This document shows positions 5,231 through 32,805 of a stretch of DNA of 43,849 bases, piece after piece. Source of the stretch: a bacterium (GTDB lineage Bacteria > Bacillota_I > Bacilli_A > RF39 > UBA660). Every line of letters begins with the position of its first letter. Positions within the stretch are counted from its first letter, which is position 1. Position numbers and translations under genes: made by a program. The notes below the pieces were generated by a model, which had not been told where the DNA came from, searched no databases, and saw only the letters and a list, made by a program, of their open reading frames with translations. Location of the stretch: positions 1 through 43,849 of the forward strand of contig JAUNSN010000006.1 in the NCBI GenBank assembly GCA_030539175.1. The letters run 5' to 3'.

Positions 5231-6901
5231 TTAAGTTATTCCTTTGTGTTTTCTTCGGGAATTATTAAGCATTTCTTCGACCATTAAAAAAATATAATAA
5301 TAACTATTCACAACCATTTGTCTTCCTTCTGCAGGAAGTTTTTTTTGATGATGATATTGATCAATTACTTGATGATATATTGGTGGTAAAGACGCGACGC
5401 AAGCATCTATTTCTTCTTGTGTATAGCCAGAATTTTGCAAATAAGAAATTACAGTTAATCCAGTTTTTTCTTTTGCTCTTCGAAAATGGTTGCGTTTTTC
5501 AAATAATAAATTATCTAATTTAAGCATTATATTAATAATTGTTTCTAAATCGCTTACAAAATATATATCTGTTTTAGTATCAAGATTATTACCGTAACAC
5601 TTAACTAAAATATTTTGCTGATGCTTTGATAAGTTAGATATAGCACTTTGTAATTCTTCTTTGCTTATAAATTGACTATTATAGTGTTCTAAAAAATTAT
5701 TTGGAATACGTTTAGATTTTATAATTAAACGATAAGCTAAATTAGGATACATAAATAACATTAATTTTACTATACAATCATTTAATATTAACTTTCTTGA
5801 CTTGCCATCTGGTGATAATATTCCTAGCATTTCGCAAACTTCATCATTGGTTATAACTTTATTTGCTAATGCTTTTCTTATACCATTTTTAACATCTTCT
5901 CTATTAATAGTTATTCTTTTTGACGAGTTATCTGACTCTTGTTCTTTATTTTTGCGAGATAATCTCTTGCTCATATATCGAGCTAGTTCATCAATTGTAC
6001 TGGCAGTTGGTTTATCTATAACAGGTTCTATACTTCCATGTTTCTCTTGATAAAATTGTAATTTTTCACGAACAGATTTTAATACCAGTCTAATTTGTTC
6101 TTTACTTACATTAGTTATATCTCCTATATCTTTTAAAGTCATCTCTATTGATACATCAACACCTGCCATTAATCGTAGTGCTATAGCTTCACTAGGAGTT
6201 AAATTACTAAGTATTTTATATAAAGTCTTTCGCATCAAAGTGTTACAAACAATATCTTCAACAGGTGGTAAATTTTCATCAACAACGCAAGCTCCTAAGG
6301 TTATACCAGCATATGTGCCATTCGCGCCACTTATTTCAGCATCCAAGGATATCGGTTGAAGATTTTCTTTTTTTTGAAGAAAGAATAATTCTTCAATACT
6401 TATTTTTAATGCCGTCGCTAACTCCTTATTAGTTGGTTTTCTTTCTAATTTTTTAGTTAATTCAGTTTCTGCTTTATTCATCCGATAAATTTCTGCTTGG
6501 ACTTTTGGTGGTATTTTAATAAACAAATGATTATTTCTAATAATGCTTGTTTTAATCCAATAGCCAGCATAAGTGGAAAATTCTGTTCCTCTGTTAACAT
6601 CATACTTTTTAATTGCCGTTAGCAAACCAAGATTACCATTTTGAATAATATCAGTTTTATCTTCGTCATTTTCTAATTGACAAGCTAACTTATTAGCAAA
6701 AAAGATAACCAACTTAAGATTAGCCTCAGCTATTTTCTGTTCTAATTTATTTACTTCTTCTATATTTCCATTTTCTCTGGCAATATCTCTTTGATAAAAA
6801 AGAGCTTTTGTATCATCACCCTCATATAATGGTTTTTCTGGCAATACTTCTTCAAGATCCTTGAAATATTGGCCATCTCTATCTATATTATCATTATACA
6901 T
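5231..6901 (-). CDS. Sigma-70-like factor with long repeated C-terminal extension
   Basis: The start is placed at ATG 6901 because a GAAGGAA site precedes it; an upstream frame extension lacks one. The 556-residue protein has a sigma-70 region 2 (LKLVIFFANKLA, DIIQNGNLGLLTAIKKYDVNRGTEFSTYAGYWI), region 3 (KPTNKELATALKISIEEL) and a region 4-like segment (LTPSEAIALRL, TLKDIGDITNVSKEQIRL). About 230 unusual residues follow. This tail contains two related modules of the form EE(I/L)xxxxxxL, near ISKEELQSAISNLSKHQQN and YTQEEIDACVASLPPIYHQ. The gene at 6997-8361 has the same kind of tail. Normal group-1 or group-2 sigma factors end after region 4, so the extension is distinctive. Target promoters are unknown. 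It is probably co-transcribed with its paralogue 95 bases upstream. Confidence 0.8.
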   Translation of the reverse strand: MYNDNIDRDGQYFKDLEEVLPEKPLYEGDDTKALFYQRDIARENGNIEEVNKLEQKIAEANLKLVIFFANKLACQLENDEDKTDIIQNGNLGLLTAIKKYDVNRGTEFSTYAGYWIKTSIIRNNHLFIKIPPKVQAEIYRMNKAETELTKKLERKPTNKELATALKISIEELFFLQKKENLQPISLDAEISGANGTYAGITLGACVVDENLPPVEDIVCNTLMRKTLYKILSNLTPSEAIALRLMAGVDVSIEMTLKDIGDITNVSKEQIRLVLKSVREKLQFYQEKHGSIEPVIDKPTASTIDELARYMSKRLSRKNKEQESDNSSKRITINREDVKNGIRKALANKVITNDEVCEMLGILSPDGKSRKLILNDCIVKLMLFMYPNLAYRLIIKSKRIPNNFLEHYNSQFISKEELQSAISNLSKHQQNILVKCYGNNLDTKTDIYFVSDLETIINIMLKLDNLLFEKRNHFRRAKEKTGLTVISYLQNSGYTQEEIDACVASLPPIYHQVIDQYHHQKKLPAEGRQMVVNSYYYIFLMVEEMLNNSRRKHKGIT

Positions 6902-6996
6902 ATTATTTCCTTCTTTCTTTTTGTAAAGAACCATCTAACATTTTGAAATCTAATTATATTTTTTTATTTTAGTATTTTATAAATTATTTATTTTTA

Positions 6997-8361
6997 TTAA
7001 CTAAAATTGCTTTTTGATCGAGATAATCTTTGAGTCTTAGCATTTATATTGAGTTTTATAATAATATCACTAATTATTTTTATATCCTCTACTAAATAAA
7101 TAACTAATGCTTGGTTATAGTTTTCTCCATAATATTTACATAAATTCTCTTGATCCTTTTGACTTAACATAGATATCATTTCAAACACTTTTTCGTCGCT
7201 AATACCTTGTTCGTTATAATACTTAAATAGATCATTAGGTATATGGGGATAATTTATTTGTAACAATTCTTTATCGTTAGGATCTATCATGAATAAAAAC
7301 AATTTAGCATAAGCATCAGCTAGTATTACATTGGGATTGTATTGTTTACCTAATATAGCATTAACTTCATCTTTTGTTAAAACATTATCTAAATAAGCTT
7401 TATTTAAAGATGCCTCGACATAAGTTGTAGTGAACATTATTGTTCTTTTGTTATTTTTATTAACTCTAGCAGTTGCATATCGAGTAATATCGTGAATTCG
7501 TTTATTATAGTAAGAATCATCTTGGTTACTTAGTGTAGGTGAACCATCTAATATTATTTTGCTACATTTTTTTAACTTAGCTATTGCACTTGTGTATATT
7601 TGAAAAATTCTTTGTCTGCTTACTCCTAATAACTGACCTATCTCTTGATCAGTCAAATTGGGAAATTGCAATTTCAAATCAAGAACAACATGTTGTGATA
7701 GTGATATAGTTCGACTGATTGCTTGATTATTATATTTTTGTTGTAAATCTCTTGTAACAATATCTTCAACTGCTAATATGGTATCATCATAAATAGTATC
7801 ATTAAGAGTCAGTTCTGTTTCACTATGTAGTGGCTGATCTAATGATGTTATCTTCACATCAGCATCTTTTAATATATCAATAATATCCTCTACTTTCATT
7901 CCTAATTCTGTTGCTAATTCTTGATATGATAGCTTTCTTCCTAATTCAATTTGTCTTTTATAATGATATGCTACTACTCTACGAATTAACCATGTTCTAG
8001 CTTTGGGAACTCTAATAGTACCTTTTGGATTATCAATTATATATTTAATAATTTCACTTTCAATCCAATAGCTAGCATATGTCGAAAACATTGCTCCCCT
8101 TGTTATATCATATCCTTTAACTGCTCTCATTAAACCGATACAGCCAATTTGGTATAAATCTTCATTTGAACAAACGATATCTATGGCAAATTTATCAGCT
8201 ACTTTATAAACAAATTTCCAAACTAATCTTATATTTAGTTCTATTAACTTGCATTCTATTTGTTCTACTGTTTGAAAATCGCCTTGACATCTAGCATTAT
8301 CTCTTTCGTTAAATAAATTACTCATTTCTTGCTGTATTTGTTTTTTTCTTATACTTTCCAC
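6997..8361 (-). CDS. Sigma-70-like factor with C-terminal extension, paralogue of its neighbour
   Basis: This 454-residue protein starts at GTG 8361 behind GGTAGGGG. Region 2 is clear (IRLVWKFVYKVAD, DLYQIGCIGLMRAVKGYD, FSTYASYWIESEI). Region 3 follows (LSYQELATELGMKVEDI), then region 4 with a helix-turn-helix (LTDQEIGQLLGVSRQRIFQI). From about residue 285 it has an extension unrelated to ordinary sigma factors. It shares with the downstream paralogue the pattern LTKDEV-xx-ILG, IPNDLFKYYN, ISDEKVFEMISMLSQKDQENL and YYGEN. Expression is probably driven by the TTGACA/TAAAAT promoter at 8426-8454, which sits in an inverted repeat. The physiological role is not known. Confidence 0.82.
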   Translation of the reverse strand: MESIRKKQIQQEMSNLFNERDNARCQGDFQTVEQIECKLIELNIRLVWKFVYKVADKFAIDIVCSNEDLYQIGCIGLMRAVKGYDITRGAMFSTYASYWIESEIIKYIIDNPKGTIRVPKARTWLIRRVVAYHYKRQIELGRKLSYQELATELGMKVEDIIDILKDADVKITSLDQPLHSETELTLNDTIYDDTILAVEDIVTRDLQQKYNNQAISRTISLSQHVVLDLKLQFPNLTDQEIGQLLGVSRQRIFQIYTSAIAKLKKCSKIILDGSPTLSNQDDSYYNKRIHDITRYATARVNKNNKRTIMFTTTYVEASLNKAYLDNVLTKDEVNAILGKQYNPNVILADAYAKLFLFMIDPNDKELLQINYPHIPNDLFKYYNEQGISDEKVFEMISMLSQKDQENLCKYYGENYNQALVIYLVEDIKIISDIIIKLNINAKTQRLSRSKSNFS

Positions 8362-8393: not shown

Positions 8394-8468
8394 TTTTGAT
8401 AAATACCCGCTTTTTGTTGGAGTGTATTTTAAACTATTTTATCAAAAATGTCAAGTTTTTGATAAAAT
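8394..8468. promoter_or_regulatory. Putative operator: perfect 13-bp inverted repeat plus a third half-site
   Basis: The arms ATTTTATCAAAAA (8436-8448) and TTTTTGATAAAAT (8456-8468) are perfect inverted repeats around a seven-base loop. A third TTTTGATAAAT element lies at 8394-8404, between promoter and gene. The -35 box TTGACA lies in the loop and the promoter spacer covers one arm. A dimeric repressor bound here would block RNA polymerase. The binding protein is unknown. Confidence 0.6.
8426..8454 (-). promoter_or_regulatory. Strong sigma-A-type promoter of the sigma-factor pair
   Basis: On the minus strand, TTGACA (8449-8454) is separated by exactly 17 bases from TAAAAT (8426-8431). It lies about 65 bases upstream of the GTG start at 8361. 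This is one of the best-matching promoters in the window. Confidence 0.8.
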
Positions 8469-13285: not shown

Positions 13286-13636
13286 TTAATGTCTAGGTTT
13301 AAATAAAAGAGCAATAATAAACCCTAATACTAAAGCAACACTAATACCAGCTGATGTCAAATTAAACACTCCCATTGTTAATCCAAGTAAACCAATATCT
13401 CCAGCCATATCTAAGGCACCATGAATCAATAAATGTCCAAATGAGGTAATAGGTACTAATGCACCTGCTCCGCAGTACAATACTATTTTGTCATATATGC
13501 CAAATATATCAAGGAAAGCCCCTATTACAACAAATAATGATGTAATATGTCCAGGTGTTAATTTAGTATTATCTAAGATTATTTGTGATATTAAGCAAAT
13601 AAAACCACAAAACAAAAATGCATACAAATAAGTCAT
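13286..13636 (-). CDS. spoVAE: Stage V sporulation protein AE (SpoVAEb type)
   Basis: This 116-residue integral membrane protein has about four hydrophobic segments. Family landmarks are LTPGHITSLFVVIGAFLD, GAGALVPITSFGHLLIHG and the glycine-rich SAGISVALVLGFIIALLFKPRH end. SpoVAEb, with SpoVAC, forms part of the membrane channel that moves calcium-dipicolinate across the inner forespore membrane. Its ATG overlaps the TGA stop of spoVAD by four bases. Length matches B. subtilis SpoVAEb. Confidence 0.92.
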   Translation of the reverse strand: MTYLYAFLFCGFICLISQIILDNTKLTPGHITSLFVVIGAFLDIFGIYDKIVLYCGAGALVPITSFGHLLIHGALDMAGDIGLLGLTMGVFNLTSAGISVALVLGFIIALLFKPRH

Positions 13637-14637
13637 AATTCTACCTCCAAGCTTATGGCATGAGCAATAGCTGGTATTGATTCTTTTTGAAATACCATAG
13701 TTGGCGAAAATAAGGCACCTGTTGGAACAATTAATACTTTTTGAAGTTTATTTTTTAACATTTCTTTATATATGTAACTAAAATTTACTAAAGTACTACA
13801 TGCTGGACCACTACCACCAGCTAACACTGGTTGTTTATCTAAATCATAGATTATAGTTCCGCAATCATCATAATTATTACTAAGATCTATATTATATGCT
13901 GTTTTCATATACTCAATTAATATTTCTTTTCCATATATACCTAAATCGCCAGTTAAAATTAAATCATAGTAAGATGCTTGTCTATTTAACTTAGTTAAAT
14001 GACTATAAATTGTATCGGCTGCGGCTGGAGCCATAACTGCTCCCATATTATTAACATCATTAATGTTTTTATCAATTACTCGACCTATAGTTGATGATTC
14101 TATTTTTATATTAGTTTTTTTATTAGTAAGTAGTATACTACTTGCACCAGTTACAGTAAATGTTGCAGTTTTCGGTTTAGGTGTTCCATACTCAGTTGGA
14201 TTTCTAAATTGTTTTTCTGCAGCCATATTATGAGAAGAAATAGCACAAAGACAATTCTTTGTCATTTTATTTTCAATAAAATTAGAAGCAATAATTAAAG
14301 ATTCGCTACTAGTAGCACAAGCATTATATACTCCTAGAAAAGGTATTTTAAATTTAGCTGCGGCATAATCGCTAACTGCTAATTGATTTTGTAAATCACC
14401 AGCTATTAATAAGTCGATCTCATTTTCTGACAAATCATTTCTTTTCATTATTTTTTCGATGCTTTCTTTCATTAACTTTATTTCTGCTTTCTCCCAACTT
14501 TTTTCTCCAAAATATAAATCTTTTTGATATTTTACATCAAAGTATTTACTTAATGGTCCATCACTTTCATAAGGACCAGCTATTGTAAAAGCATCTTTTA
14601 TATAAACATTTTTATATTTATGTGTCATTTTACCCAC
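13633..14637 (-). CDS. spoVAD: Stage V sporulation protein AD
   Basis: This 334-residue, thiolase-fold protein binds dipicolinic acid on the SpoVA complex. Landmarks are YIKDAFTIAGPYESDGPL, GVYNACATSSESLI near residue 105, GTPKPKTATFTVTGA and GGSGPACSTLVNF near 270. The family resembles beta-ketoacyl synthases without enzymatic activity. It overlaps spoVAC by eight bases upstream and spoVAE by four bases downstream, so the three form a tight operon. No spoVAA, spoVAB, spoVAEa or spoVAF is present here; clostridial-type spoVA operons also have only C-D-E. Confidence 0.95.
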   Translation of the reverse strand: MGKMTHKYKNVYIKDAFTIAGPYESDGPLSKYFDVKYQKDLYFGEKSWEKAEIKLMKESIEKIMKRNDLSENEIDLLIAGDLQNQLAVSDYAAAKFKIPFLGVYNACATSSESLIIASNFIENKMTKNCLCAISSHNMAAEKQFRNPTEYGTPKPKTATFTVTGASSILLTNKKTNIKIESSTIGRVIDKNINDVNNMGAVMAPAAADTIYSHLTKLNRQASYYDLILTGDLGIYGKEILIEYMKTAYNIDLSNNYDDCGTIIYDLDKQPVLAGGSGPACSTLVNFSYIYKEMLKNKLQKVLIVPTGALFSPTMVFQKESIPAIAHAISLEVEL

Positions 14638-15070
14638 CTACCAATAATAGTCTAATTAATCCAAAGATATATACTGATACCACTCCATAAAGAATTACTG
14701 TACCTCCGAGTTTAAATATATTCGCACCTATTCCTAAAATTAATCCCTCATTCTTGTATTCTAAAGCAGCACTTGTAATGGAATGAGCAAATCCTGTTAT
14801 AGGAATTATTAAAGCACTTTTAAAGGTATTAACTAAAACATCAAATACTCCAAATGCAGTCAATAATGAGCTTATTACTATTAGAGTTAAAATAACTAAA
14901 ATACCAGCATCCTTTCTCGGTATTGATAACCAGGTTGCATAACAATTTAATAAAAGCTCACTTAAACTTCCTAATATTCCCCCACTTATAAAAACTAATA
15001 TACCATTCTTTATCCAATTTTCCTTAGGACTTTTTCTTTTTACTAATTTTTGATAATCTGCTTTATTCAT
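14630..15070 (-). CDS. spoVAC: Stage V sporulation protein AC
   Basis: The start is set at ATG 15070 (MNKADYQKLVKRKSPKEN), which has a GGTGAT site; this is the canonical SpoVAC N-terminus. The 146-residue membrane protein has several hydrophobic helices and the motifs GGILGSLSE, LTAFGVFD and ALIIPITGFAHSITSAALEY. SpoVAC behaves as a mechanosensitive channel component for dipicolinate transport. A hairpin lies between the upstream XRE gene and this start, so the spoVA genes may use their own promoter. Confidence 0.94.
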   Translation of the reverse strand: MNKADYQKLVKRKSPKENWIKNGILVFISGGILGSLSELLLNCYATWLSIPRKDAGILVILTLIVISSLLTAFGVFDVLVNTFKSALIIPITGFAHSITSAALEYKNEGLILGIGANIFKLGGTVILYGVVSVYIFGLIRLLLVGG

Positions 15071-15114
15071 AATAATCACCACTATTATTATTAACAAGTA
15101 GTATTATAATATAC

Positions 15115-15470: not shown

Positions 15471-16121
15471 TTAATTAACTTTTAATTTTTGTAATACTTT
15501 CTTTTCTGTCCTTGATATTTTACTTTGGTTTATCCCCATAATAGTGGCAACTTCTTGTTGCGTAAATCCTTGAAAATATCGCAACTGAACAAGACGTTGT
15601 TCCTCTTCTTGCAAATTGTTCATTTGTTCCTGAAAAGATATATCTAATGTTTTTTGACTAATATCTTCTATACAGCCATATAAATCCAACTGATTTCCAT
15701 CATCATTTATATTTCTATCTAAACTATCAACTTGACTGGACATAATAATACAGTGTTCTATTTGATATAGCGGTATTTCCAAAAAGTCGGCTAATTCTTG
15801 GTTAGAAGGAAAGTGCATCAATTGTTGTGATAAATAACTTTGAGCTTTACTTATTAATTTACTCATTTCTAAATATTTACTTCCTAATTTTATCATTTTA
15901 TTATCATTGACATATTTATAAACTTCACCTTTTATATATGAGTAAGCATAAGTTGTAAACTTAGTGTTAAATGTTGGATCAAACTTTTGATATGCTTTAA
16001 TTAGACCAATACTGGCAACTTGAAATAAATCATCATATTCTGCATACTTGGTATAACTTTTTATAATAGAATGTATTAAATTCTCGTTATTTATGATTAA
16101 ATCTTTTAAATCTTGTTTCAT
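15471..16121 (-). CDS. Sporulation sigma factor, SigF/SigG-like
   Basis: This 216-residue sigma-70 factor is the size of SigF/SigG minus a short N-terminus. Region 2 is clear (NLIHSIIKSYTKYAEYDDLFQVASIGLIKAYQKFD, FTTYAYSYIKGEV). Region 3 (PSNQELADFLEIPLYQIEH) and region 4 (RLVQLRYFQGFTQQEVATIMGINQSKISRTEKKVL) follow. Its position, after a STAS-like gene and before spoVACDE, matches sigF (spoIIAC) in B. subtilis. The N-terminal 'MSR'-type signature that separates SigF from SigG is not decisive, so the exact name is left open. The start has an AGGTGAT site, eight bases after the upstream stop. Confidence 0.85.
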   Translation of the reverse strand: MKQDLKDLIINNENLIHSIIKSYTKYAEYDDLFQVASIGLIKAYQKFDPTFNTKFTTYAYSYIKGEVYKYVNDNKMIKLGSKYLEMSKLISKAQSYLSQQLMHFPSNQELADFLEIPLYQIEHCIIMSSQVDSLDRNINDDGNQLDLYGCIEDISQKTLDISFQEQMNNLQEEEQRLVQLRYFQGFTQQEVATIMGINQSKISRTEKKVLQKLKVN

Positions 16122-32694: not shown

Positions 32695-32805
32695 CCTTAA
32701 AATTATATTAAGACTCGCCTTGAAGGTGAACTTAAAAATTCTTATTACCTTTTTAGTGCGGTTGTAAAACAACTAAGGGTCTCAAACAAGGTAAATTCTA
32801 CCATA
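32695..32805 (-). promoter_or_regulatory. Probable L21 leader RNA
   Basis: The 100-base leader of rplU contains TTTGAGACCCTTAGTTG, GCACTAAAAAGGTAATAAG and AAGGCGAGTCTTAA, in the order expected for the L21 autoregulatory leader of Bacillota (Rfam L21_leader). Recognition is by eye; a covariance-model search would settle it. Confidence 0.5.

Follow-up and report, generated by a model that had tools for sequence, protein, structure and literature searches.

The window analysed here, a stretch of 43,849 nucleotides from a bacterium whose order we take to be RF39 of GTDB, carries two adjoining genes for sigma-70-type factors, P2 and P1, which lie head to tail on the same strand with P2 upstream and whose frames are both intact. 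An earlier note on this DNA had described two neighbouring sigma-70 proteins with tails past region 4; its coordinates were correct, and regions 2 to 4 are detected by Pfam. The genes and their parts are as follows.

6997 to 8361, (-) strand: P2, sigma-70-type factor with extended tail, 454 aa, GTG start
8038 to 8247, (-) strand: P2 sigma region 2 (Pfam PF04542, 7.8e-12)
7777 to 7953, (-) strand: P2 sigma region 3 (Pfam PF04539, 2.3e-6)
7555 to 7719, (-) strand: P2 sigma region 4, helix-turn-helix intact (Pfam PF04545, 8.3e-11, above cut-off)
7228 to 7437, (-) strand: P2 tail subdomain, common to P1 (from the P1/P2 alignment)
7024 to 7227, (-) strand: P2 tail module (22.7 bits, E 2e-6, HMM without window sequences)
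5231 to 6934, (-) strand: P1, sigma-70-type factor with extended tail, 567 aa, ATG start
6536 to 6730, (-) strand: P1 sigma region 2 (Pfam PF04542, 1.1e-10)
6323 to 6490, (-) strand: P1 sigma region 3 (Pfam PF04539, 5.9e-8)
6029 to 6223, (-) strand: P1 sigma region 4, divergent (PF04545, 7e-5, below cut-off; order-specific region 4 HMM, 2e-14)
5699 to 5926, (-) strand: P1 tail subdomain, kind unassigned, common to P2 only (helices 345-403 in the predicted structure)
5471 to 5695, (-) strand: P1 tail module 1, degenerate region 4 (30.8 bits, HMM without window sequences)
5243 to 5455, (-) strand: P1 tail module 2, weak copy (11.2 bits, same HMM)

For P1 a start at the internal ATG at 6901, which is preceded by a GAAGG ribosome-binding motif, is preferred and gives a protein of 556 aa. 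Regions 2 and 3 of both proteins score above the Pfam cut-offs, while region 4 of P1 reaches 22.7 bits against a cut-off of 24.1 bits; in the predicted structure it comprises helices 247-257, 267-274 and 278-299. Since the sigma-70 family is defined by the presence of region 2, for core and -10 binding, and region 4, for -35 binding, P1 and P2 are sigma-70-type factors as judged by domain content, and they fall outside the ECF group, which has regions 2 and 4 without region 3, because both carry region 3.

The DNA ahead of P2 contains three further elements.

8426 to 8454, (-) strand: promoter-like site TTGACA-17-TAAAAT, 11 of 12 consensus matches
8436 to 8468, no strand: ATTTTATCAAAAA-7-TTTTTGATAAAAT, a perfect inverted repeat with 13-bp arms and its centre at the -35 hexamer; operator candidate
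8394 to 8403, no strand: third half-site TTTTGATAAA, downstream of the promoter-like site

The inverted repeat was matched by none of 300 mononucleotide shuffles, and its 12-bp core has no second copy in the genome within 3 mismatches. From its sequence, the promoter-like site probably drives P2 and then P1; as only 62 bases separate the two genes, a single transcript is likely, and the pair may control its own transcription via the palindrome that overlaps the P2 promoter.

Elsewhere in the window, a third sigma-70 factor (15471 to 16121, (-) strand; 216 aa, regions 2, 3 and 4) adjoins SpoVAC- and SpoVAD-like genes (13633 to 15097, (-) strand), whose presence indicates that this small genome retains sporulation genes. 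An Rfam ribosomal protein L21 leader lies at 32701 to 32773 on the (-) strand.

Kinship of the tail module with sigma region 4

What are the tails made of? A seed profile was built from six modules, taken from P1, P2 and a tailed sigma factor of another genome (L020). Circularity was avoided with a second HMM, which was begun from an array of 13 modules (L057) and iterated with no window sequences. This HMM recovers both window proteins (P1 6e-14, from 30.8 and 11.2 bits; P2 2e-6, at 22.7 bits), and in their own genome a further profile free of window sequences (A5) gives both proteins a higher rank than any ordinary region 4. The claim of a module common to both tails is thus borne out independently of the sequences from which it was drawn. 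The module has the consensus IYEYFSEYSKEEIDEAISKLPEEDKEILKLRYGEDLDNPxxSKxLSKxEYxKFYNxIIPKIKKLL and recurs with a period of 85-86 residues in the L057 array and of about 75-85 residues across tandem modules. P2 has one copy and P1 one clear and one weak copy, so that of the earlier claim of two modules in the 556-residue protein the first stands firmly and the second only in part: in the predicted structure of P1, module 1 (helices 414-419, 425-433, 437-447 and 460-488) is modelled with a pLDDT of about 71-93 over most of its length, whereas module 2 (helices 494-501, 506-514, 518-529 and 535-564), weak by sequence, shows the same helix order at a pLDDT of about 60.

Several comparisons place the module with sigma region 4. 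In profile comparisons with region 4 of sigma factors from the order, the module reaches 96% (54 columns), or 93.8% (36 columns) when a smaller set is used. Arrays of modules that lack a sigma core match PF08281 (1.9e-35 in L057, 2.1e-22 in L058) and many NCBIfam sigma-factor models, there within the region-4 part. Among solved structures, sigma region 4.1 accounts for most of the best sequence matches (E 0.01-0.7, with some chance matches to DnaJ), and sigma region 4 for most of the best fold matches (E 0.6-5, probability at most 0.21); singly, neither set is significant, and their weight comes from their agreement on region 4.

The predicted structure of two modules (pLDDT 88) consists, in each, of a short helix, two 4.1-like helices, a loop and one 20-residue helix, which occupies the place of the recognition helix. 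The module shares with sigma-70 region 4 (PF04545, PF08281) the 4.1 helices, the signature xxL(T/P)xxxxxxLxxRYG, found in the module as LxxLxxxxxxLxxRYG, and a long last helix. Unlike region 4, it occurs in tandem, is most variable on the exposed face of the last helix, and is predicted to lack the first helix of the helix-turn-helix, as no helix is modelled between module residues 35 and 47. In the model of P1, in contrast, region 4 itself is complete, with the extra helix present, and is located upstream of the tail modules. We conclude from profiles and models that the tail module is a degenerate region 4, as the earlier note had proposed; having lost one of the two helices of a complete helix-turn-helix, it is doubtful as a canonical DNA binder.

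The tails are also new to the databases, as first supposed: neither Pfam nor NCBIfam holds them as a family of their own. An anti-sigma domain or known sigma-tail domain was considered and rejected, no Pfam, NCBIfam or PADLOC family accounting for the tail, and the open-access papers searched on repeated region 4 or on RF39 sigma factors contain no description of the repeat. The nearest architectural parallel is provided by extended ECF sigma factors such as ECF42, in which the core is followed by a TPR repeat extension of about 200 residues (PMC8999054). Like P1 and P2, these have a sigma core and then a long C-terminal extension, but their tails are unrelated folds (SnoaL, TPR, WD40), whereas the repeats of the P1/P2 pair come from region 4 of the sigma factor itself; moreover, P1 and P2 retain region 3, which some of their relatives elsewhere lack. 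The sigma core of the window pair also resembles MzaA of the MZA anti-phage system (NF041931, PDLC02203; E 1e-45 to 1e-12). However, the match spans the core only, at 121 and 91 bits against a family cut-off of 800, and membership was rejected for want of a full-length match above it.

Distribution and architectures of the repeat

The earlier note had treated the tails as a peculiarity of twin sigma factors. Their novelty holds, but the module is widespread in the order and occurs in several architectures. At E 1e-3 the seed profile has matches in 85 of the 288 genomes sampled from the order, and a part of these matches may be ordinary region 4. A search of a genome collection yielded 61 loci, nearly all from uncultured Bacilli, Erysipelotrichaceae or Tenericutes assemblies and many, judging by isolate names, from animal guts; Candidatus Faecisoma merdavium, whose genus is assigned to the Mycoplasmatota in the NCBI taxonomy, is among the carriers. 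Beyond the window's family no convincing match emerged from 395 genomes sampled across the class and 392 across the phylum; three single weak matches in frames of 229-245 aa from other families are probably ordinary region 4 and were set aside. The viral contigs searched contain no relative of the module, and a phage origin was rejected on this ground. One 3998-base contig filed under Methanobrevibacter (L112) encodes a tailed sigma factor typical of Bacilli relatives and was probably mis-binned in the public assembly. As far as sequence comparison can tell, the repeat is an order-specific, region-4-derived family larger than the P1/P2 pair.

Four architectures were found. In the first, a sigma core with region 3 precedes modules and usually a terminal domain; in the second, modules come after a sigma core without region 3; in the third, 2 to 20 modules form an array that has no core; and in the fourth, a single module stands ahead of a calcineurin-like phosphoesterase, at these four places.

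L061, 4739 to 6118: phosphoesterase with N-terminal module
L091, 3855 to 5114: phosphoesterase with N-terminal module
L147, 1649 to 2896: phosphoesterase with N-terminal module
L152, 1699 to 2952: phosphoesterase with N-terminal module

In L061 and L091 the module is followed by an apparent helix-turn-helix. Several arrays stop at contig breaks of the draft genomes. Most arrays and tailed sigma factors close with a terminal domain in which the region-4-like fold is intact (profile 99%, E 3e-18). Longer tailed sigma factors, such as L063 (residues 1-190), carry ahead of region 1.2 a conserved N-terminal domain of about 190 residues, which has no confident Pfam family and is missing from P1 and P2.

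Neighbouring genes differ from locus to locus, and a conserved operon partner was accordingly rejected. An RNase Y gene (517 aa) lies directly 3' of module genes at L056/L102, L105, L108 and L073, the module genes being core-less arrays in three of these four, and PD-(D/E)XK and UvrD-type helicase genes precede a pair of module genes at two loci, without generality. Module genes themselves stand side by side at several loci (e.g. L055, L056, L064, L066, L069, L070, L081, L111 and L114). This recurrence in other genomes would be compatible with P2 and P1 forming a two-component pair, in which one is the sigma factor and the other its antagonist or co-factor, autoregulated via the palindrome; so would the adjacency of the two genes on one strand and the perfect 13-bp inverted repeat, unique in the genome, across the -35 hexamer. 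We nevertheless hold such a pair to be most improbable, given that P1 and P2 both retain regions 2 to 4, and that the side-by-side genes elsewhere vary in kind (two sigma factors, a sigma factor with an array, or two arrays). Palindromes with arms of at least 11 are found in 5 of 56 upstream regions of module genes and in 16 of 311 controls; with no clear enrichment, the palindrome was rejected as a family-wide operator, and the operator candidate is local to the window.

P1 and P2 are divergent members of this family: they have two modules and one, respectively, and in neither was the terminal region-4-like domain found. The two proteins align end to end at 33% identity (34% for the tails alone). 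P2 is the best match of P1 within its own genome and also the top-scoring one when P1 is searched against the 288 genomes of the order, the next matches being limited to the sigma core; no close relative of the pair was found in that sample. The ~75 residues between region 4 and module 1 are common to both proteins, and this subdomain matches neither region 4, the module nor the terminal domain. The pair is probably an old duplication in its own lineage, a point that the phylogeny leaves unsettled, as P1 and P2 are long unplaced branches within the region-3-containing half of the tree. Long branches and the lack of close relatives, together with a region 4 of P1 under the Pfam cut-off, a weak second module and an undetected terminal domain, could also suggest that the pair is a decaying or neutral by-product: in a fast-evolving lineage, sigma factors would have been duplicated and their tails would be eroding, with no function under selection. 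This seems to us quite improbable, as both frames have stayed intact at such low identity with their core motifs retained, as subdomain and module are kept in both proteins, and as a near-consensus promoter-like site lies upstream.

Candidate contacts of the modules

At a syntenic locus shared by L097, L149 and L110 with L099 (across a contig break), the same gene has four modules in L097 and a single one in L149. Among themselves the four share 74-84% identity, but only 51-55% with the module of L149; arrays therefore grow by duplication. The near-identity of tandem repeats, with differences mainly at set positions, that marks TALE-like modular DNA-reading repeats is seen in the most uniform arrays, such as L057/L098, L060/L097 and L080/L096, most other arrays being more diverged. 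The most variable columns within arrays (48-50, 52, 53, 57 and 58) map to the start and the exposed face of the long last helix. Between nearest module pairs of 12 arrays, pN is 0.29 in these columns and 0.09 outside them, with pS at 0.32 and 0.27. In arrays that had no part in the choice of columns, pN is again higher (0.27 versus 0.12, Mann-Whitney p 5e-4); however, pS is high there as well and the N:S ratio is no different (Fisher p 0.34). Positive selection on the helix, suggested by the column-defining arrays, was thus unconfirmed in the independent ones, and we restrict the claim to the existence of a variable face.

What could such a face touch? Our preferred reading, which we hold to be as likely as not, is that P1 and P2 are alternative sigma factors in which the region-4-derived modules add promoter contacts, likeliest to DNA upstream of the -35 element. 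Judging by their conserved domains, regions 2 to 4 would bind the RNA polymerase core and open promoters as usual. A copy of region 4 would have been duplicated, have lost the first helix of its helix-turn-helix and have become a mobile repeat within this bacterial order, and the modules would serve as additional contacts by which the holoenzyme is held at, or guided to, certain promoters, presumably through their basic last helix. The outcome would be a promoter selectivity exceeding the normal -35 read-out. Descent from region 4 and the location of the variable face on the counterpart of the recognition helix favour DNA as the ligand. So does the split charge of the modules, with a mean of about -3.6 before the loop and +3.5 in the half with the last helix. 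It counts against DNA contact that the net charge of a module is near zero and that the modules of P1 and P2 are neutral to acidic (0, -2 and -3).

A neutral module with one acidic half would suit protein-interaction repeats. The activity of the sigma factor would then be turned on or off by a protein bound to its tail, which could be the beta flap of RNA polymerase, an anti-sigma factor or a further module protein, comparable to what has been proposed for TPR-tailed ECF42. The occurrence of a module ahead of a phosphoesterase, with no sigma core, fits protein binding equally; a variable exposed face is typical of protein-binding repeats too, and a regulatory role is the usual one for extensions at the C-terminus of sigma factors (PMC8999054). 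We regard this explanation as possible though doubtful, since the derivation from region 4 and the position of the variable face speak for DNA, and since no conserved neighbouring partner gene was found.

The promoter-contact reading could be carried further, to modules forming a programmable-looking DNA-reading array: up to about 20 of them, attached to a sigma factor or a phosphoesterase or standing alone, would place their variable helix faces in the major groove to read long promoter or target sequences, and would diversify by duplication and change of the face. We consider this extension unlikely.

Sigma factors rank with the best known proteins of bacteria, yet a repeat derived from the domain with which they read the -35 element, found in many proteins of one uncultured order and most variable on one helix face, is missing from the families of Pfam and NCBIfam and from the open literature searched. 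Contact of the modules with DNA would extend promoter recognition by sigma factors and provide a new repeat scaffold; contact with protein would make them a new kind of regulatory extension.
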